Positions 14,653 through 62,784 of a DNA stretch of 64,000 nucleotides are shown here, piece by piece. Position 1 is the stretch's first letter. Each line of letters opens with the position of its first letter. Origin of the DNA: Bartonella sp. 220B. GTDB lineage: Bacteria; Pseudomonadota; Alphaproteobacteria; Rhizobiales; Rhizobiaceae. The notes beneath the pieces were generated by a model. That model was not told the origin of the DNA, searched no databases, and worked only from the letters and a program-made list of their open reading frames with translations. The translations under genes and the position numbers were made by a program. The DNA lies in the NCBI RefSeq assembly GCF_026930205.1, contig NZ_JANHOI010000008.1, positions 1 to 64,000 of the forward strand, in the 5' to 3' direction.

Positions 14653-15183
14653 CTAAGCAGCTTTTACGACAGATCTTTCTAAAACCTGTTTTGCTTCTTT
14701 AATGAGAGCTTTGTATTTTCTGTTCTCTTCGTCTACTCTAAAAGAATCGATAAGACGCATATGAATTGGACCTAAAAGATACAAAACTTTTTCACCAGCG
14801 TTCATACCCTCCCAATAGCTTGGTAAAGCAAAGCGTGTATCACTATCATAATCAACAGATTGGCTTCTTAATTTCTTTTCACACTCAATAAAGTAACGAC
14901 GAGCTTGCCTGCCTTTTTCATTCCTCTCAACCATGGAAAGCTCTTTTGCCATATCTAATGTGAGGTAATATTCTGTCATACTTACATTTTGACGCTCCCC
15001 CGTTTTGGGGAACGTTAAAATATAATCTTTTGCACAAACAAATTTATATGTTTTGATACGGTTTTTAATCCATGTCGTAAAATCACGACCTACTTCTAAA
15101 AATGTATGTAATTCACGTGCATTGACCGTTTGAACCGTTTCTTTACCAATAGTTTGTTCTGTGATTTCTATGAGAGTGTTCAT
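14653..15183 (-). CDS. AntA-type phage antirepressor (RNA copy A)
   Basis: 176 residues. The N-terminal AntA/AntB domain (about 1-105, VNARELHTFLEVGRDFTTWI ... YYLTLDMAKELSMVERNEKG) is known from phage antirepressors that bind and neutralise the phage repressor. The C-terminal ~60 residues (LGPIHMRLIDSF ... KQVLERSVVKAA) match the end of the gene at 50798-51319, which has a different N-terminus, so domains are shuffled. Start 15183 has AGGAG (15190-15194) which is part of the third arm of RNA copy A. Translation is therefore predicted to be under control of that RNA. Confidence 0.85.
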   Translation of the reverse strand: MNTLIEITEQTIGKETVQTVNARELHTFLEVGRDFTTWIKNRIKTYKFVCAKDYILTFPKTGERQNVSMTEYYLTLDMAKELSMVERNEKGRQARRYFIECEKKLRSQSVDYDSDTRFALPSYWEGMNAGEKVLYLLGPIHMRLIDSFRVDEENRKYKALIKEAKQVLERSVVKAA

Positions 15184-15189
15184 AATGAA

Positions 15190-15430
15190 CTCCTGTTTGT
15201 TAAACATTTTCTATTAACACTCTAAAAAGAGTGCCGGGTGCTAGAAAACACGGCAAACAGTCCGCCGTTATGCTTTCCCCATAAAGGGTATTGTATAGCA
15301 TAACTACACCCGACGGGATCATTATATGCGTGTAGCATAGAATGAGTCAAAGTCTTTAATGTGCGGAAGAGAGATTGTTTCGGCAATCTATCCGCTGTTT
15401 GCTTAAGGTGTTTTCTAGGCACCTGATTCG
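15190..15430 (-). ncRNA. Brt-like structured RNA, copy A
   Basis: One of eight homologous elements. Promoter on the minus strand: TTGACA (15455-15460) and TATTGT (15431-15436), 18-bp spacer. Minus-strand arms: arm 1 GCAAACAG (15395-15402), arm 2 CTGTTTGC (15253-15260), arm 3 CAAACAG running into the ribosome site GAG (15190-15199). A second segment behaves likewise: CTAGAAAAC (15410-15418) versus GTTTTCTAG (15241-15249) and AGAAAATG near arm 3 (15205-15214). Conserved internal hairpins include GTTATGC/GCATAAC and CACTC/GAGTG. It stands directly before the AntA gene. Confidence 0.85.
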
Positions 15431-17709: not shown

Positions 17710-18312
17710 TTATTTTGTAAACAAGCGATAAGCTTTACGTGGCAGTATTGAAACTATTTCCCCAATCCATTTTATCTTAACATTTTTAATGGGATCTGCA
17801 TTCCATGATTTGAGTACAATCCCCTCTGAAGAGCGAACAATTTGTTTTATGAATCGCCTATTGTCTTCTGTTAGAACAACAACTTCATCACCGTAATAGT
17901 CGCTTATTGGCTTTGTTTGCAGATGTTTAACTACGATTAAGTCCCCATCTTTATACACAGGAAACATAGAAGTTCCACGAACCATGAAACCTATTGCTTC
18001 AAAAGGCAAATCAAATGGTATTTCAATTGTTTCAAGCCCATCTTCTGGGATTTGCTCAACATCGGTATCAATCTCTAATCCTGCTCCTACATACCCCATA
18101 ACAGGAACAAGTGTAGTAACTTGATTATAACCCTTTAAGCTTTTATAAAGTTCTAAAATTGCGTCTCTGTGTGAACCTCTGGGATCAGATTCATTTCCTA
18201 ACCATCTTGATACGGTTGCTTGGGTTACATTTAGTCTATCAGCAAGATCTTTTTGATTAAGACCAAACTCAGATTGCAATATTTGCAATGTCGCAATGAT
18301 ATTTTTCGTCAT
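17710..18312 (-). CDS. Second CI/LexA-type phage repressor with S24 peptidase domain
   Basis: 200 residues. XRE helix-turn-helix at ~10-55 (LNQKDLADRLNVTQATVSRW), then an S24 domain with Ser in VRGTSMFPVYKDGDL and Lys in RRFIKQIV. It is divergent from the Cro-like gene at 18412, with the operator-like palindrome 18370-18385 between them, the classical layout of a lysogeny switch. Having two cleavable repressors in tandem is unusual. The two share the architecture but little sequence. Confidence 0.9.
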   Translation of the reverse strand: MTKNIIATLQILQSEFGLNQKDLADRLNVTQATVSRWLGNESDPRGSHRDAILELYKSLKGYNQVTTLVPVMGYVGAGLEIDTDVEQIPEDGLETIEIPFDLPFEAIGFMVRGTSMFPVYKDGDLIVVKHLQTKPISDYYGDEVVVLTEDNRRFIKQIVRSSEGIVLKSWNADPIKNVKIKWIGEIVSILPRKAYRLFTK

Positions 18313-21783: not shown

Positions 21784-22980
21784 TCATTTCTGATTAAATA
21801 TACTGTTGATTTTCTGCTTCTTCGAGGCTGGTTTCACCAAAGTCACAGGACATTGGCCAGAGCCTTCCTCTCCACAGGCTGACACGGTGGAACTCACCGC
21901 CAAGTTTTTTAAATTAATCGCGGCATTAATGTCTCGATCATGGTATGTACCACAATGAGAACATCTCCACTCACGTATGTTAAGAGGCAATTGTTCAATC
22001 TTACATCCGCAATGATGGCAGATCTTACTGCTCGCATACCAACGATCTGCAATAACAATCTGTCGACCATAACGTGCCGCCTTATATTCCAATTGACGGC
22101 GAAACTCGAAAAAACTTTGATCGGCAAGGGCACGCGATAAATGCTGATTTTTCAGCAAGCCTTTTACATGAAGATCTTCGAGACAAAATGTACCAAAACG
22201 CTGAATTAAATCTGTTGTAACCTTATGCAAATTATCCGTTCTTATATTGCTTATCCGCGCATGAAGCTTAGCGAGTTTTTGTTTCTCCTTATAGCGGTTG
22301 CTCGAGCCTTTTTGCTTACGACTTAGCCTTCGTGAGAAGCGCCGTAAACGATTTAGCAAAGCCTTATAAGGTTTAACGCCTCCTATGGTTTCTCCTGTCG
22401 AAAGCGTTGCAAGTGCATTGATGCCCAAATCAAGACCAACAATAGCTTGGTTCTCGCTCAGTGGCTTTTGATGATCTGTTTCAATGCTAAGACTTACAAA
22501 CCACCGATCCGCTTTACGGCTAATGGTTGCTGACAAGATCTTTCCTTGAAATCGCAATTGTTCTCGCAAACGAACCCAACCAAGTTTGGGAATTCTTATC
22601 TTGAAACCTTGCAACTGTATTTGATCATTGGTCAAAGTAAAACGATCGTGCACTCCTTTCTTTCTAAAAGTGGGATATCGGCTTCTCCCTGAAAAGAAAT
22701 TCTGAAAAGCCACACCCAATTGAATAATTGCCATTTGTGGAGCATTTTTAGTAACTTCCATCATCCATGGAAATTGTTCTCGTTTTAGAGAATTGAATTG
22801 TCTACGTAGTGCATAGTCATTAGGCTTTGGTAAATTATTATCTTTCTTCCATGCTTCATATTGCTGCTGCCATTCCTTCAGTGCCCAATTATAAGCAAAG
22901 CGCGCGCAACCACTGGCTCGAGCCATGTAGCTTCGTTGTTTATTGTTTAAGTCTAGAGCTATTTTGTGAGCAACAATCAT
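21784..22980 (-). CDS. tnpB: TnpB, RNA-guided nuclease of an IS607-type element
   Basis: 398 residues. RuvC-like catalytic residues are all present: Asp184 (VGLDLGINAL), Glu268 (FCLEDLHVKG) and Asp350 (HDRDINAAINL). The zinc ribbon is CHHC (321-324) with CSHC (340-343). TnpB of IS200/605 and IS607 elements is an omega-RNA-guided DNA nuclease that preserves the element. Its ATG overlaps the tnpA stop in ATGA. The omega RNA would cover the 3' end and the downstream edge, but only 16 bp separate the stop from higB, so the guide would read into or near the toxin gene. All catalytic residues are intact, so it is probably active. Confidence 0.92.
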   Translation of the reverse strand: MIVAHKIALDLNNKQRSYMARASGCARFAYNWALKEWQQQYEAWKKDNNLPKPNDYALRRQFNSLKREQFPWMMEVTKNAPQMAIIQLGVAFQNFFSGRSRYPTFRKKGVHDRFTLTNDQIQLQGFKIRIPKLGWVRLREQLRFQGKILSATISRKADRWFVSLSIETDHQKPLSENQAIVGLDLGINALATLSTGETIGGVKPYKALLNRLRRFSRRLSRKQKGSSNRYKEKQKLAKLHARISNIRTDNLHKVTTDLIQRFGTFCLEDLHVKGLLKNQHLSRALADQSFFEFRRQLEYKAARYGRQIVIADRWYASSKICHHCGCKIEQLPLNIREWRCSHCGTYHDRDINAAINLKNLAVSSTVSACGEEGSGQCPVTLVKPASKKQKINSIFNQK

Positions 22981-27876: not shown

Positions 27877-28115
27877 AATCAGGTGCGTAGAAAACACCTT
27901 AAGTGCATAGCGGATAGATTGCCGAAACAGTCTTTTTTCCGCACATTAAAAACTTTGACTCGTGATATGCTTGTGGCGTACAAGAGACTTGTCGGGTGTA
28001 GTTACACCATACAATACCCTGTGTGGGAAAAGTGTAACGACGGACTATGCACCGTGTTTTCTAGCACCCGGCACTCTTTTAGAGTGTCAATAGAAAACCT
28101 CTAACTGCATAGGAG
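27877..28115 (+). ncRNA. Brt-like structured RNA, copy B
   Basis: Promoter TTGACA 27847-27852 and TATTTT 27869-27874. Arm 1 GTGCATAG (27903-27910), arm 2 CTATGCAC (28045-28052), arm 3 TGCATAG (28106-28112) which overlaps the ribosome site AGGAG (28111-28115). Secondary segment TAGAAAAC (27888-27895), GTTTTCTA (28056-28063), TAGAAAAC (28091-28098). The central stem is GTTACAC/GTGTAAC, where copy C has GCTATG/CATAGC: compensatory change. It leads into the Rha-type gene at 28121. Confidence 0.88.
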
Positions 28116-28120
28116 TTATC

Positions 28121-28657
28121 ATGAATACTTTTATAGAAACTGTGGGAAACACTGCTAATAGTAGTGCAGCGGTTCAGACTATGTCTAGTCGTGAAATTGC
28201 AGAATTATGTAACAAAAGACACGATCATGTTATGCGCGATATTAAGCAAATGCTTGAAGAACTTAACGCCCCCAAATTTGGGGTGGTTGATTTTATCGGT
28301 ACTTACGTTGATGCAAAAGGTGAAAACCGTCCTTGTTATAACCTGCCTAAACGCGAATGTCTTATTCTTGTCTCAGGTTACAGCACGGCGTTACGAGCAA
28401 AGATCATAGATCGTTGGCAGGCACTGGAAGCACAGGTAGCAACACCGAAAATTGATTATTCAAGTCCTCAAGCTATGATTGGCTTTTTAAATCACTTGCA
28501 AAGCCAAATCGAACAAAAAGATCATGTGATTGCCGAATTAGAACCAAAGGCAAAAGCACTTGATGGTTTAAAACGTTCTGATGGCTTGTTTGGTTTGATT
28601 GAAGCAGCAAAACAGATTATCTGCGTAAAAACATTACATTGCCACTTGACAATGTAG
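28121..28657 (+). CDS. Rha-type antirepressor, C-terminally truncated (RNA copy B)
   Basis: 178 residues. Rha domain ([20 protein letters not shown] ... [20 protein letters not shown]), linker and the first half of the shared C-terminal domain, which stops being colinear after [10 protein letters not shown]. An internal deletion joins it out of frame to a later segment (CAGATTATCTGCGTAAAAAC) and the protein ends within the promoter of RNA copy C. The identical junction occurs at 39118-39169. The truncated form may still bind partners through its N-terminal domain. Confidence 0.8.
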
Positions 28658-28674
28658 CGACAATATGAATAATC

Positions 28675-28912
28675 GAATCAGGTGCCTAGAAAACACCTTA
28701 AATCGATAGCGGATAGATTACCGAAACAATCTTTCTGCCGCACATTAAAGGCTTTGACTCACGATATGCACGTAGCATATAGTAGTCCTGTCGGGTGTGG
28801 CTATGCCATAAAATACCTTTTTGGGAAAAACATAGCGACGGACTATCGACCGTGTTTTCTAGCACCCGGCACTCTTTTAGAGTGTCAATAGAAAACCTCT
28901 AATCGATAGGAG
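28675..28912 (+). ncRNA. Brt-like structured RNA, copy C
   Basis: Promoter TTGACA 28646-28651 with AATAAT/ATAATC at 28668-28674. Arm 1 TCGATAG (28703-28709), arm 2 CTATCGA (28843-28849), arm 3 TCGATAG (28903-28909) fused to AGGAG (28908-28912), six bases before ATG. Secondary segment CTAGAAAAC / GTTTTCTAG (28854-28862) / TAGAAAAC (28889-28896). Other stems: GCGG/CCGC with AGATT/AATCT, TATGC/GCATA, GCTATG/CATAGC and CACTCT/AGAGTG. Confidence 0.9.
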
Positions 28913-28918
28913 TTCATC

Positions 28919-29650
28919 ATGAACACTCTTATAGAAATTACAGAACGGATTATTGATAGGGAAGCTGTTCAAACCGTCAATGCTCGTGAATTACATGCAT
29001 TCTTGGAAGTAAAAACCAGTTTTAAAGATTGGATTATCAGACGCATTCAAGATTGTAAATTTAAAGAAGGATACGACTTTTGCTCTTTTTTGAGCGAAAG
29101 TTCAGGTGGGCGTCCTTCTAAAGATTATGCTCTTACATTAGACATGGCTAAACACCTTTCAATGATCGAGCGTAATGACAAAGGGCATGAAGCACGTCAA
29201 TACTTTATCAAATGTGAACGGCTTTTGAAACAAGTAGTGACACCACAAATAGACTACTCTAAGCCTGAAGCATTGCTAGGCGTCTTGAATCACTTACAAA
29301 ATCAAATCGAACAGAAAGATCATGTGATTGCCGAATTAGCACCAAAGGCAAAAGCACTTGATGGTTTAAAACGTTCTGATGGTTTGTTTGGTTTGATTGA
29401 ATCTGCAAAAATGTTAGAAGTACGACCTAAGGACTTAACTGATTATTTGCGTAAACATGATTGGGTCTATCGCCGTGCTCCAAGTGGTCCATTGTTACCT
29501 TATCAGGATAAGATCAAGAAAGGTCTCATGGATTGCCCTGCTATTACTATTCAAAGACCAGATGGTACAGAAAAGGTGCTCCCTTCAACAAAAATCACAT
29601 CCAGAGGATTAGCTTGCTTGAGAGAACAAATCTTTGGGGGTGTGCAATGA
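28919..29650 (+). CDS. AntA-type antirepressor with full shared C-terminal domain (RNA copy C)
   Basis: 243 residues. AntA domain 1-100 (VNARELHAFLEVKTSFKDWI, YALTLDMAKHLSMIERNDKG), linker with PQIDYSKPEALLGVLNHLQ, helix [20 protein letters not shown], then the C-terminal domain (GLFGLIESAKMLEVRPKDL ... YQDKIKKGLMDCPAITIQR ... TKITSRGLACLREQIF). The C-terminal part resembles the KilAC/ANT-type DNA-binding end of phage antirepressors. Its stop overlaps the ATG of a 92-residue companion gene. Confidence 0.85.
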   Translation: MNTLIEITERIIDREAVQTVNARELHAFLEVKTSFKDWIIRRIQDCKFKEGYDFCSFLSESSGGRPSKDYALTLDMAKHLSMIERNDKGHEARQYFIKCERLLKQVVTPQIDYSKPEALLGVLNHLQNQIEQKDHVIAELAPKAKALDGLKRSDGLFGLIESAKMLEVRPKDLTDYLRKHDWVYRRAPSGPLLPYQDKIKKGLMDCPAITIQRPDGTEKVLPSTKITSRGLACLREQIFGGVQ

Positions 29651-38109: not shown

Positions 38110-38310
38110 GAATCAGGTGCCTAAGAAACACCTTTAAAAATACCAAGCGGATAAGCTACCGATATAGTTTGTTTTCCGCAATTTAAAAACTTTGACTCAT
38201 TGTATGCTACACGCATATAATGACCCTGTCGGGTGTGGTTATGCCATAAAATACCCTTTGGGGAAAAGCATAACGACGGACTTGGTACCGTGTTTCTTAG
38301 CGCCCGGCAT
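38110..38310 (+). ncRNA. Brt-like structured RNA, copy D (orphan, no gene)
   Basis: Promoter TTGACA 38081-38086. Arm 1 TACCAAG (38141-38147) and arm 2 CTTGGTA (38281-38287) are complementary and private to this copy; secondary segment CTAAGAAAC (38121-38129) matches GTTTCTTAG (38292-38300), also different from all other copies. Internal stems are kept: GCGGA/TCCGC, GTTATGC/GCATAAC. The element ends at CCCGGCAT without the terminal hairpin, third arm, ribosome site or gene, and the promoter of copy E follows within 50 bp. Confidence 0.85.
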
Positions 38311-38385
38311 CAAAGATCAAATTAGCAAAAAATATTAAAAAATTATCGAAAGATACTTGACATTATTTATGTAATATATATTTTC

Positions 38386-38626
38386 GAATCAGGTGCCTGA
38401 AAACACCTTAAAACATCTAGCGGATTGGTTGCCGAAATAATCACTCTTCCGCGCATTGTAAAGGCTTTGACTCATTGTATGTGTGTAGCATATAATGGCT
38501 TTGTCGGGTGTAGTTACGCTATAAAATACCCCTCGTGGGAAAGGTGTGACGACGGACTAGATGCCGTGTTTTCAGCGCCCGGCACTTTTTATCGAGTGTC
38601 AATGAAAACATTCAAACATCTAGGAG
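38386..38626 (+). ncRNA. Brt-like structured RNA, copy E
   Basis: Promoter TTGACA 38357-38362, upstream region nearly identical to copy B. Arm 1 CATCTAG (38414-38420), arm 2 CTAGATG (38557-38563), arm 3 CATCTAG (38617-38623) fused to AGGAG (38622-38626). Secondary segment CTGAAAAC / GTTTTCAG (38568-38575) / TGAAAAC (38603-38609). Stem TGGTT/AATCA replaces AGATT/AATCT of copy C. Seven... to nine bases separate the ribosome site and ATG 38633. Confidence 0.88.
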
Positions 38627-38632
38627 TTTACC

Positions 38633-39169
38633 ATGAACACTCTTATTCCAATATTGGAACAAACAATTGATCAGGAAACTGTTCAAACAGTCAACGCACG
38701 TGAGTTGCATGCATTTTTAAACATCACATCAAAGTTTGCAGACTGGATTAAAAATCGCATAAAAGAATGTAAGTTTCGAGAAAACAAAGACTTTGTAACG
38801 CTTTCTAAAAATTTAGAAAACGGTGGAAAAGTAAAAGAGTACCACCTAACTTTAGACATGAGTAAACACCTTGCCATGATCGAGCGTAATGACAAGGGAC
38901 ATCAAGCAAGAGAATACTTTATCGAATGTGAAAAACTTGCAAAGCAGATAACAACACCACAGATTGACTACTCAAGTCCTCAAGCTATGATTGGCTTTTT
39001 AAATCACTTGCAAAGTCAAATCGAGCAGAAAGATCATGTGATTGCCGAATTAGAACCAAAGGCAAAAGCACTTGATGGTTTAAAACGTTCTGATGGCTTG
39101 TTTGGGTTGATTGAAGCAGCAAAACAGATTATCTGCGTAAAAACATTACATTGCCACTTGACAATGTAG
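38633..39169 (+). CDS. AntA-type antirepressor, C-terminally truncated (RNA copy E)
   Basis: 178 residues: AntA domain (VNARELHAFLNITSKFADWI ... YHLTLDMSKHLAMIERNDKG), linker and half of the shared C-terminal domain. It is cut after [10 protein letters not shown] with exactly the same out-of-frame junction and ending ([11 protein letters not shown]) as the Rha-type gene at 28121-28657, and ends in the promoter of RNA copy F. Confidence 0.82.
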   Translation: MNTLIPILEQTIDQETVQTVNARELHAFLNITSKFADWIKNRIKECKFRENKDFVTLSKNLENGGKVKEYHLTLDMSKHLAMIERNDKGHQAREYFIECEKLAKQITTPQIDYSSPQAMIGFLNHLQSQIEQKDHVIAELEPKAKALDGLKRSDGLFGLIEAAKQIICVKTLHCHLTM

Positions 39170-39186
39170 CGACAATATGAATAATC

Positions 39187-39424
39187 GAATCAGGTGCCTC
39201 AAAAACACCTTAAATGTACAGCGGATGGATTGCCGAAACAATCTTTTCTCCGCCAATTAAAAGCTTTGACTCGTTATATGTTGCACGCATATAATGACCT
39301 CGTCGGGTGTGGTTATGCCATAAAATACCCTCGTGGGGAAAGCATAACGACGGACTGTACGCCGTGTTTTTGAGCGCCCGGCACTCTTTTAGAGTGTCAA
39401 TCAAAAACATCTAATCGTACGGAG
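39187..39424 (+). ncRNA. Brt-like structured RNA, copy F
   Basis: Promoter TTGACA 39158-39163. Arm 1 TGTACAG (39215-39221), arm 2 CTGTACG (39355-39361), arm 3 CGTACGG (39416-39422) overlapping GGAG (39421-39424); arm 1/2 and arm 2/3 pairings each need a G-U pair, so the two alternatives stay balanced. Secondary segment CTCAAAAAC (39198-39206) / GTTTTTGAG (39366-39374) / TCAAAAAC (39401-39408). Stem GTTATGC/GCATAAC. Confidence 0.88.
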
Positions 39425-39429
39425 TTCAT

Positions 39430-40158
39430 ATGAACACTCTTATAGAAATTAAAGAACAAATCATTGATCAGGAAACTGTTCAAACGGTCGACGCACGTGA
39501 GTTACATAGTTTTTTAGAAATAAAGTCTGAGTTTAGAAATTGGATAAAAAACCGTATTAAAGAATGTAAATTTCGTGAAAATCAAGACTTTGTAACTACG
39601 GTAAATTTTTACCGGGGTGGAAAAGTGAAAGAATATTACATCACGTTAGATATGGCTAAACATCTTTCGATGATCGAGCGTAATGACAAAGGGCACCAAG
39701 CAAGAGAGTATTTTATCGAATGTGAAAAACTTGCAAAGCAGATAACAACACCACAGATTGACTACTCGAGCCCTGAAGCTGTATTAGGTGTTTTGAATCA
39801 CTTACAAAGTCAAATCGAACAGAAAGATCATGTGATTGCAGAGTTAGAACCTAAGGCCAAGGCACTTGATGGTTTAAAACGTTCTGATGGTTTGTTTGGT
39901 TTGATTGAATCTGCAAAAATGTTAGAGATACGACCAAAGGATTTAACCGATTACTTGCGGAAACATGATTGGGTGTATCGGCGTGCTCCGGGGGCTCCTC
40001 TATTACCTTATCAGGATAAAATCAAGAAAGGCTTCATGGATTGTCCTGCTATTACCATTCAAAGACCGGATGGAACAGAAAAGGTCCTGCCTTCAACAAA
40101 AATCACATCCAGAGGATTGGCATGTTTGAGAGAACAAATCCATGGAGGTGTACAATGA
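39430..40158 (+). CDS. AntA-type antirepressor with full shared C-terminal domain (RNA copy F)
   Basis: 242 residues. AntA domain (VDARELHSFLEIKSEFRNWI ... YYITLDMAKHLSMIERNDKG), DYSSPEAVLGVLNHLQ linker, then the same C-terminal domain as 28919 (KMLEIRPKDLTDYLRKHDWV ... TKITSRGLACLREQI). It overlaps a 92-residue companion gene in ATGA. The ribosome site is inside arm 3 of RNA copy F. Confidence 0.85.
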   Translation: MNTLIEIKEQIIDQETVQTVDARELHSFLEIKSEFRNWIKNRIKECKFRENQDFVTTVNFYRGGKVKEYYITLDMAKHLSMIERNDKGHQAREYFIECEKLAKQITTPQIDYSSPEAVLGVLNHLQSQIEQKDHVIAELEPKAKALDGLKRSDGLFGLIESAKMLEIRPKDLTDYLRKHDWVYRRAPGAPLLPYQDKIKKGFMDCPAITIQRPDGTEKVLPSTKITSRGLACLREQIHGGVQ

Positions 40159-51325: not shown

Positions 51326-51565
51326 CTCCTTGTTGTTAGACGTTTTTCATTGACATTTTTTATAAAAATGCCGGGTGCTGAAAAACACGGCAACAAGCCC
51401 GTCGTTATGCCTTTCCCCCGAAAGGGTATTGTATAGCATAACCACACCCGACAAATCTATTATATGCGTGTAGCATATAACGAGTCAAAGTCTTTAATGT
51501 ACAGAAGACTGATTATTTCGGTAACCAATCCGCTTGTTGTTTTGAGGTGTTTTTCAAGCACCTTT
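51326..51565 (-). ncRNA. Brt-like structured RNA, copy G
   Basis: Minus-strand promoter TTGACA (51593-51598) and TAGATT (51571-51576), 16-bp spacer. Minus-strand arms: arm 1 CAACAAG (51533-51539), arm 2 CTTGTTG (51391-51397), arm 3 CAACAAG (51329-51335) fused to GAG. Secondary segment TTGAAAAAC / GTTTTTCAG / TGAAAAAC. The terminal hairpin is CATTTTT/AAAAATG where other copies have CACTCT/AGAGTG, a clean compensatory change. It precedes the Rha-type gene and sits between the fibre genes and the sheath gene. Confidence 0.87.
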
Positions 51566-61821: not shown

Positions 61822-62046
61822 ATGACAAAAAAAGATCGTGTGCAATTTAAATTTCTCATTCCAATTGAACTGAAAAATCAATTGGAAGAGCTTGCTGAAG
61901 CAAATCATCGTAGCCTTACGGGTGAAATTCTTGCTCGTTTAGAAGATTCTATCCGCACTACCGTTACATTAAATCACCTACTGGCAATGAATTCAGAAGA
62001 TCTCAAAAAGCTCCTTGAACAACCACCCGTGAATAAAAAACAATAA
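61822..62046 (+). CDS. Arc-like ribbon-helix-helix protein (rightward)
   Basis: 74 residues: VQFKFLIPIELKNQLEELAE ANHRSLTGEILARLEDSI is an Arc-family domain with the SLTGEIL helix turn. Divergent from the leftward Arc gene. Its last ~55 bp lie antisense to the tail of the truncated antirepressor gene. Confidence 0.82.
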   Translation: MTKKDRVQFKFLIPIELKNQLEELAEANHRSLTGEILARLEDSIRTTVTLNHLLAMNSEDLKKLLEQPPVNKKQ

Positions 62047-62535
62047 GATACCACACATAGCCCCCTCAGAGCGCTTTAAACCATCCAAAGCTTTTGCCTT
62101 GGGTTCTAATTCGGCAATCACATGATCTTTCTGCTCGATTTGACTTTGTAGGTGGTTCAAAACGCCTAGCAATGCTTCGGGTTTGGAATAATCAATCTTT
62201 GGTGTGACTACCTGCTTTGCAAGTTTTTCACACTCAATAAAGTATAAACGAGCTTCTCTACCTTTCTTATTGTTCTCAAGCATAGAAAGTTCTTTAGCTA
62301 CACTTAAAGTCAGGTAATAGTCTTTACGATTGTGACCACCTCTGCCTTTGCTCGCCAAATTTGGCGACCAAACAAAGTCTTGATTTTCTAATAAATTATA
62401 TTTTTTGATACGGTCAGTAATCCAATTGGAAAAATCTTTACCTATTTCTAAAAACGCATGTAATTCACGTGCGTTAACGGTTTGAACAGTTTCCTGTCCA
62501 AAAGTTTGTTCCGATATCGGAATAAGAGTGTTCAT
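61993..62535 (-). CDS. AntA-type antirepressor, C-terminally truncated (RNA copy H)
   Basis: 180 residues. AntA domain (VNARELHAFLEIGKDFSNWI ... YYLTLSVAKELSMLENNKKG), linker PKIDYSKPEALLGVLNHLQ and [20 protein letters not shown]; then it leaves the shared domain after KRSEGA and runs into foreign sequence (MCGILLFFIHGWLFKELFEI) that is antisense to the rightward Arc gene. A third truncation, with a junction different from the two at 28.6 and 39.1 kb. Confidence 0.8.
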   Translation of the reverse strand: MNTLIPISEQTFGQETVQTVNARELHAFLEIGKDFSNWITDRIKKYNLLENQDFVWSPNLASKGRGGHNRKDYYLTLSVAKELSMLENNKKGREARLYFIECEKLAKQVVTPKIDYSKPEALLGVLNHLQSQIEQKDHVIAELEPKAKALDGLKRSEGAMCGILLFFIHGWLFKELFEIF

Positions 62536-62540
62536 GTGAA

Positions 62541-62784
62541 CTCCTGTTCGATTAGACGTTTTTGATTGACACTTGATAAAAGAGAGTGCCGGGTGCTCAA
62601 AAACACGGCGAACAGCCCGTCGTTACGCTTTTCCCATAAGGGTATTGTATAGCGCAACTACACCCGACAATGCCATTATATGCGTGTAACATACAATGAG
62701 TCAAAGCCTTTAATGTGCGGAAGAAAAATTGTGTCGGCAATCTATCCGCTGTTCGTTTAAGGTGTTTTTGAGGCACCTGATTCG
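62541..62784 (-). ncRNA. Brt-like structured RNA, copy H
   Basis: Minus-strand promoter TTGACA (62809-62814) and TAGTAT (62785-62790), 18-bp spacer; the -35 contains the TGA stop of the integrase gene. Minus-strand arms: arm 1 CGAACAG (62749-62755), arm 2 CTGTTCG (62609-62615), arm 3 CGAACAG (62544-62550) fused to GAG. Secondary segment CTCAAAAAC / GTTTTTGAG / TCAAAAAC. Precedes the AntA-type gene at 62535. Confidence 0.88.

Follow-up and report, generated by a model that had tools for sequence, protein, structure and literature searches.

The window analysed here, a stretch of 64,000 nucleotides from Bartonella sp. 220B, contains eight copies, A to H, of a structured RNA unit with a copy-specific address, and we put at about three in four the probability that the full copies are prophage-borne antisense units of the C4 type, each of which would block the ribosome site of an antirepressor gene and carry, as arm 1, a decoy of that site. 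The parts of the units and their order, the covariation of their arms, the families of the genes behind them, the kinship with the Rfam family RF02221 (sRNA-Xcc1) and the match to the layout of P1 c4 are direct observations. The address pattern is real and strongly supported. The C4 design itself is known; new are the host range, the copy number, the two-part code and the drawing of RF02221 and Brt-type RNAs into the C4 design.

A scan of nine frames marks the window as prophage DNA, with a terminase, an integrase, a portal protein, a tail sheath and other tail genes, and an S24-type repressor. The latter (17710-18312, minus strand) may, as a guess, be the target of the antirepressors, and an IS605-type OrfB/TnpB gene with a Cas12f1-like domain (21784-22980, minus strand) lies within the same region. 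All eight copies of the initial annotation were found again at their positions, and they align over full length with a mean column identity of 75%. Copy C, on the plus strand, may serve as the type. A sigma-70-like promoter, TTGACA-16-AATAAT (28646..28673), has 11 of 12 consensus matches and is a candidate as a consensus match only; a transcript from it would start near arm 1. Arm 1 (28687..28709) consists of the segments a1 (28687-28694) and b1 (28703-28709), which complement the guides a' and b' exactly. The core (28789..28879), built as P1-P2-P3-linker-P1', was matched to RF02221 by cmscan with 42.5 bits, short of the 53 bits set as gathering score; guide b', which is arm 2, lies in the P3 loop (28843..28849) and guide a' in the linker 3' of P3 (28854..28861). 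Arm 3 (28889..28909) is made up of a2 (28889-28896) and b2 (28903-28909), the latter overlapping into the AGGAG ribosome site of a gene for an AntA/AntB antirepressor with a KilAC domain (28919..29650; PF08346, 4.5e-27; PF03374, 1.2e-21).

The remaining copies on the plus strand follow the same order. Copy B has arm 1 at 27888..27910, the core at 27990..28081 (45.9 bits) and arm 3 at 28091..28112, followed by a Rha-type phage regulator (28121..28657; PF09669, 7.4e-19). Copy D (38110-38310) is an orphan truncated past its core, with arm 1 at 38122..38147 and the core at 38227..38317 (44.3 bits), and with neither arm 3 nor a gene. The unit of copy E starts about 75 bases past copy D, the two cores being 275 bases apart, with arm 1 at 38398..38420, the core at 38502..38592 (38.8 bits), arm 3 at 38603..38623 and an AntA/AntB antirepressor at 38633..39169 (PF08346, 4.5e-26). 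Copy F comprises arm 1 (39199..39221), the core (39302..39390; 44.9 bits) and arm 3 (39401..39422) before an AntA/AntB antirepressor with KilAC (39430..40158; PF08346, PF03374). Three copies are on the minus strand. Copy A has arm 1 at 15395..15417, the core at 15225..15314 (49.4 bits) and arm 3 at 15193..15213, and its target is an AntA/AntB antirepressor (14653..15183; PF08346, 1e-24), whose start was placed at the ATG that follows AGGAG, while the domain scan used the longest frame, which starts at 15207. Between 15183 and 15207 (minus), b2 of copy A lies within this in-frame upstream extension of the antirepressor gene and the ATG of the extension stands at the end of a2, and a short N-terminal extension could be translated across arm 3. 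Copy G consists of arm 1 (51533..51557), the core (51362..51452; 43.8 bits), arm 3 (51329..51349) and a Rha-type phage regulator (50798..51319; PF09669, 6.7e-17). Copy H has arm 1 at 62749..62771, the core at 62579..62669, arm 3 at 62544..62565 and an AntA/AntB antirepressor at 61993..62535 (PF08346, 4.6e-24); with 55.2 bits it is the only window copy above the RF02221 cut-off.

The initial annotation had described a segment that differs between the copies and is matched at three sites in each. The matching is exact over 7-8 nt in A, B, C, E, G and H; copy F agrees in six of seven bases on either side of arm 2, both exceptions being G-U pairs, and copy D falls out of the triple pattern, as it retains arm 1 and arm 2 (TACCAAG/CTTGGTA) but has no arm 3. 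When the arms were located letter by letter, the second, A-rich segment followed the same pattern as the b segment, arm 3 was found at the ribosome-binding site, running into AGGAG, and arm 1 was found to be a copy of that site. As to the genes, which had all been taken for phage antirepressors, the seven copies with a gene stand before five antirepressors of the AntA/AntB type (A, C, E, F and H) and before two Rha-type genes (B and G).

A structured RNA family with a copy-specific address was borne out, and so was covariation of arm 2 with both other arms in a larger set; for arm 2 and arm 3, the initial annotation would have taken its absence there as a refutation. The set comprised 86 loci of Bartonella, from the genome of strain 220B and its relatives, which represent the best-scoring part of the matches listed; 84 were testable, and because part of them come from related genomes they are not independent. 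At 78 of the 84 loci, arm 2 and the arm 1 of the same locus matched in 7 or more of 8 bases, compared with 303 of 6756 pairings between loci with different addresses (4.5%); for arm 3 the figures were 74 of the 84 and 150 of 6756 (2.2%). There were 36 distinct 8-nt b' addresses among the 84 loci. In either pairing, all four base-pair types occurred at address positions 3-6, and position 8 was mostly unpaired. The count of types was confined to the 78 and 74 matching loci; as these had been selected for matching it is illustrative, and the test proper is the comparison with other addresses. The address has two parts, few A-rich a-segments being combined with many b-segments, and b mostly ends in the AG of the ribosome site. 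Permutation of the partners gave the same picture by duplex energy. For 42 distinct Bartonella guides, none of 20000 permutations reached the observed mean with either arm, and a control stretch in the middle of the core was at chance (7459 and 8887 of 20000). This test used 113 of 116 loci, three being too close to contig ends, with the 42 distinct guides drawn from 45 Bartonella loci and 68 from 68 others; in the guide/flank run test 73 of 86, 68 of 70 and 62 of 81 loci were used, repeated guides and contig-end loci having been dropped.

That each address is private to its copy held as an average and not as a rule: own pairs were stronger (-20.5 vs -15.0 kcal/mol), but two of the 16 usable copies of the 220B genome, L004 and L016, share one address. 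Strict privacy, tried on a duplex-energy matrix of the 16 copies, was rejected, as the own target was the best in only 6 of 16 rows by this crude energy.

The sequence relative of the units is RF02221. This model matched in the core of all eight copies, with H above the curated score and the other seven below it (E 9e-6 to 0.003), and every match spans positions 1-87 of 87, the consensus stems included. Copy C gave only chance-level matches to other Rfam families. The 220B genome has 17 RF02221 places at E 0.001 or better, of which two exceed the cut-off. Within Bartonella, at least 41 of 61 genomes have a match and at least 32 of 61 have one over the cut-off; across Pseudomonadota the family was found in at least 58 of 398 genomes and at least 37 of 212 genera, which is a lower bound given strict filters and at most 10 candidates scored per genome. 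By BLAST, copy C matched three Bartonella plasmids, among them NC_010160.1 (11305-11421), and no phage record. At 68 loci outside Bartonella, the guides matched their own upstream partner with a z of -20.0 and their own downstream partner with a z of -7.8 (mid-core controls, -1.2 and -0.1), and none of 20000 permutations reached the values for the own leader or the own ribosome region; taken locus by locus the downstream match was weak, the own partner being best in 2 of 68 with a median rank of 18. These data show a C4-like matching of guide and leader in RF02221 over many genera. The family has been tied to Xanthomonas integrons and virulence regulators, with no mechanism given in the parts of the reports available; an 88-nt sRNA-Xcc1 accumulates, with ends mapped by RACE, and a cluster of five homologues has been reported in Xylella (literature consulted also includes PMC8070961, PMC2996969, PMC12444791, PMC2864571 and PMC8198154). 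We found no mechanism for RF02221 in the literature searched. Core sequence and structure are common to sRNA-Xcc1 and the Bartonella copies; unlike these, sRNA-Xcc1 is typed in Rfam as an sRNA gene, and the Xanthomonas loci examined are without arm 3.

In working parts the units resemble the C4 RNA of phages P1 and P7 (RF01695), whose targets are a1b1 (RF03163, c4-a1b1) and a2b2. Both have a leader target, an antisense core, a ribosome-site target and an antirepressor operon, and in both the core presents a pair of short guides, of which one lies in a hairpin loop and the other in a linker. The annotation of the P1 record runs a1, b1 (both as putative targets), c4, a2, b2, icd, ant1, and the C4 and RF02221 alignments from cmscan have a common topology, in which the outer stem encloses, in this order, an inner hairpin, a guide hairpin and a guide linker. 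Two guides complementary to a ribosome-site target and to a second copy upstream were found in seven of the eight window copies, and the place before a phage antirepressor operon is borne out by the gene families. In the guide/flank test, 15 C4 loci and P1 served as positive control: an own run of at least 7 was found upstream in 15 of 16 and downstream in 15 of 16, compared with 44 of 240 and 34 of 240 for foreign flanks. C4 is processed by RNase P. A review attributes the heteroimmunity of P1 and P7 to their c4 RNA, which binds the ant mRNA in the region of its ribosome site (PMC12197685).

The sequence models do not meet. P1 was matched by C4 and c4-a1b1 in cmscan, but C4 (RF01695) had no match at E 1 or better in the window and none in the 220B genome, and the C4 and RF02221 models gave no cross-match at E 1 or better at four loci. 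In the absence of a core-model match in either direction, we file the RNA as working like C4, outside RF01695. A covariance model of the RF02221 leader, R1, built on 31 loci hand-picked from 85 (of 147) found by a regular expression, matched the P1 c4 leader at b1 with E 0.0047; its E-values are rough. It also matched arm 1 of all eight window copies, but at E 0.24-3.9. Of 15 C4 loci, seven had a match in place, directly 5' of the core and in the correct orientation (E 0.015-6.9), and eight had none there; from E 0.2 on, the model also matches unrelated places. Layout and leader suggest, short of proof, that the two families are of common descent. The Bartonella units differ from C4 in being present in many copies per genome, in preceding single AntA or Rha genes and not icd-ant, and in the recurring two-part address.

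The initial annotation had presented the triple arm as not known to be described. The P1 annotation contradicts this by the same layout, with a1 and b1 as putative targets, and the P4 CI RNA and IsrK are further cases of the kind (PMC4825925). The P4 CI RNA is, as proposed for the present units, an antisense RNA that pairs with one complementary sequence upstream (seqA) and one downstream (seqC) (PMC4825925); compared by description only, it is unlike them in that it targets transcription termination of replication genes. In IsrK, with orf45 (STnc1160) and anrP of Gifsy-1, a leader RNA is likewise complementary to a downstream segment, and the translation of an antirepressor-like gene is controlled by leader/target pairing; the difference is that a terminator there gives rise to a short leader RNA which acts as an activator in trans, no such terminator having been found in copies B and C, and that the order of ribosome site and complementary segment is another. 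Activation of the antirepressor by this short Gifsy-1 leader RNA (PMC4825925) fits a decoy, and, by the same token, layout alone does not give the sign of control. A link of RF02221 or Brt RNAs to C4 was not found in the literature searched; PMC12189769, the only paper common to the sRNA-Xcc1 and C4 papers listed, names the two side by side, unlinked, in its accessible parts, and in the main text of PMC5387305 the terms 'phage', 'antirepressor' and 'Rfam' are absent at word start.

We propose that one promoter would give rise to a single transcript of the leader with the decoy arm 1 (a1b1), the RF02221-like core and the antirepressor mRNA. The core would present b' in its hairpin loop and, in the linker that follows, a'. 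In the cell, base-pairing of these guides with a2b2, where the ribosome binds the antirepressor mRNA, may repress translation of the antirepressor; a core that has been set free would do so in trans. By competing for the same guide, arm 1 would serve as a built-in anti-antisense that limits the core, and the (a, b) pair would define the immunity group, within which phages silence one another's antirepressors. Folding bears on this. The initial annotation had assumed a choice in cis, in which arm 2 pairs with arm 1, leaving the ribosome site free, or with arm 3, hiding it; neither state was predicted. In seven full transcripts, pairing of arm 1 with arm 2 was predicted at 0.81-0.98 in six and at 0.29 in copy E, pairing of arm 2 with arm 3 at 0.01 or less in all (in copy A, 0.97 and 0.00, respectively), and the ribosome site was unpaired at only 0.01-0.50. 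With arm 1 removed, arm 2 paired with arm 3 in cis at 0.94 in copy F and at 0.00-0.24 in the other six. As the pairing of arm 2 with arm 3 is almost never predicted in cis, arm 3 is better seen as the target of a separate or processed RNA. The core stems are conserved as an Rfam family and sRNA-Xcc1 is found as an 88-nt RNA, so the active form is probably the freed core, which would meet arm 3 as a separate molecule. Arm 1 with arm 2 is the predicted winner in six of seven uncut transcripts, and the full-length RNA would therefore be self-blocked unless processed.

A switch of the leader in cis only, with arm 2 alternating between arm 1 and arm 3 in one molecule and no RNA acting in trans, is possible but, in our judgement, rather unlikely. 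It would account for three covarying arms in one unit of about 240 bases, and IsrK offers a precedent with two alternative folds of opposite translation states (PMC4825925). The folding values given above speak against it, with arm 2/arm 3 at or below 0.01 in seven copies and, after removal of arm 1, high in F alone; so do the P1 C4 RNA, which is a separate RNA of 77 nt (P1 annotation; table of PMC12197685), and the 88-nt sRNA-Xcc1, whose length fits a core that lacks arm 1.

The initial annotation had named the Brt RNAs of Bartonella as closest relatives, but the RNA in the published Brt gene context is another sequence. Brt RNAs were identified here by this context, a small XRE gene with an RNA of about 200 nt upstream. 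Both B. tribocorum CIP 105476 (G049) and the 220B genome have such small XRE genes, and the RNA upstream of them is a separate family; in the three of its loci that were scanned, neither RF02221 nor C4 matched at E 5 or better, and Rfam gave nothing beyond one chance-level match. The RF02221-like units of the window, for their part, have AntA or Rha as next gene and not a small XRE helix-turn-helix gene. In B. tribocorum CIP 105476, in which 34 Brts were counted by Tu et al. (2016; PMC5387305), we found 24 RF02221 places at E 0.1 or better, including C1 11332-11421. The identity of copies A-H with Brt RNAs was ruled out by sequence and gene context, while a relation in design was kept. Brt-context RNAs were compared at 35 places from 20 loci in two genomes, with control of strand: leader and own guide shared a run of at least 8 in 27 of 35 places, compared with 134 of 1186 other pairs (none of 5000 permutations), and there was no arm 3 signal toward the gene (621 of 5000 permutations). 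Most of L327-L349, L354, L357-L363 and L373 thus represent a second Bartonella RNA family, before XRE genes, with a C4-like leader/guide address. In common with the window units, the Brt RNAs (PMC5387305) are of the same genus, multicopy, upstream of a regulator gene and designed with an arm 1/arm 2 address; they differ in sequence, in having XRE genes in place of antirepressors and in being without an arm 3 signal.

A comparable situation was seen in Xanthomonas, among the 81 places used from 80 of at least 120 genome stretches. At 13 loci arm 1 and arm 2 are retained and no arm 3 could be seen by eye. The loci L200, L208, L216, L227, L240 and L258 are near-identical, their addresses differ, and the stretch before the gene is constant and unmatched, a diversification of addresses with no target at hand. 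Of five frames checked in this set, that of L240 belongs to the XAC0095 family and four had no NCBIfam match; in a rescan of seven Xanthomonas frames there were three XAC0095 and four without an NCBIfam match. The retention of arm 1 and arm 2 where arm 3 is absent, in Xanthomonas and in the Brt type, implies that this pair has a use of its own for which arm 3 is not needed.

Such retention would also be expected of a transcription attenuator, in which the core stops transcription, pairing of arm 1 with arm 2 lets it through, and arm 3 is secondary. This comes closest to the published reading of Brt: the RNAs of about 200 nt are abundant and the genes behind them poorly transcribed (PMC5387305), and according to a review transcription of trp1 rises when the 3' part of brt1 is removed. 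Knock-down of Brt1 gave more badA, and the authors hold that this does not come about via read-through into trp1 (PMC5387305). These published facts agree with negative control by the RNA, but they concern a different RNA from that of the window. A simple consensus scan of the plus strand from arm 1 to the gene, made for copies B and C, found no intrinsic terminator in either, and the arm 3 match at 74 of 84 loci would be left unexplained. We therefore hold attenuation to be doubtful as the main function of the units.

A reading as metabolite riboswitch or thermosensor, of the kind put forward in the literature for Brt1 and heme, is far less probable. The structured core is conserved, and gfp cloned behind brt1 responds to heme according to the review; that report, however, is on a different RNA, for which temperature and pH had no significant effect, and what is conserved in the window units is a relation between variable segments, whereas a ligand pocket needs no copy-specific triple match. 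Copying of whole units between loci by gene conversion, with the arms drifting together and no regulation, is hardly credible, although the units are short and sometimes tandem, as in D and E, and related genomes have addresses in common. The number of addresses, 36, and the occurrence of all four pair types at positions 3-6 in both pairings imply repeated coordinated change in three places, and the control stretch lacks such a relation.

If the C4-type antisense reading is correct, RF02221 gains a concrete mechanism proposal which can be tested, and the Brt RNAs, discussed as riboswitches or as trans-acting virulence regulators, may be read as phage-type address RNAs. The 36 natural addresses in one genus also lend themselves to asking at what minimum length a private RNA code still holds. 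One step further, prophage-rich genomes might hold a library of C4-type RNAs in a two-part code as an RNA immunity between phages, in which a resident copy would silence the antirepressor of an incoming phage of the same code and copies without a gene, such as D, would be a memory, the same scheme applying to the Xylella cluster and, without arm 3, to the Brt RNAs; this we offer as speculation and consider improbable.

Copy D is not the only orphan. L045, L143, L153 and L176 likewise consist of leader and core without arm 3, followed by the apparent promoter of another unit. None of the remaining 15 usable copies in the 220B genome has the address of copy D at arm 3, but the full address is matched at arm 3 of L151, from another Bartonella genome. 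A search of the 220B genome for a trans target of this orphan, with TACCAAGGAG and at most one mismatch, gave 36+42 places compared with 38+57 for the reversed control, which is no signal; five of the places were exact.

The frames behind the cores were called by rule at 217 of 237 loci, and some of them are surely not genes. Behind Bartonella cores (n=76) there were 40 AntA, 11 Rha and 16 beta-solenoid (YdcK-like) frames; outside Bartonella (n=140) there were 27 Bro-N, 7 Rha, 3 P22_AR_N, 5 SymE-like and 34 of the XAC0095 family. Phage antirepressors and Rha regulators are the majority in Bartonella and a large minority elsewhere. RF02221 units near SymE have been reported for Xanthomonas integrons. 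In our set, units before SymE-like frames, picked by eye, are L047, L067, L077, L084 and L092, and two of these, L047 and L067, have a run of 7 toward the start codon.
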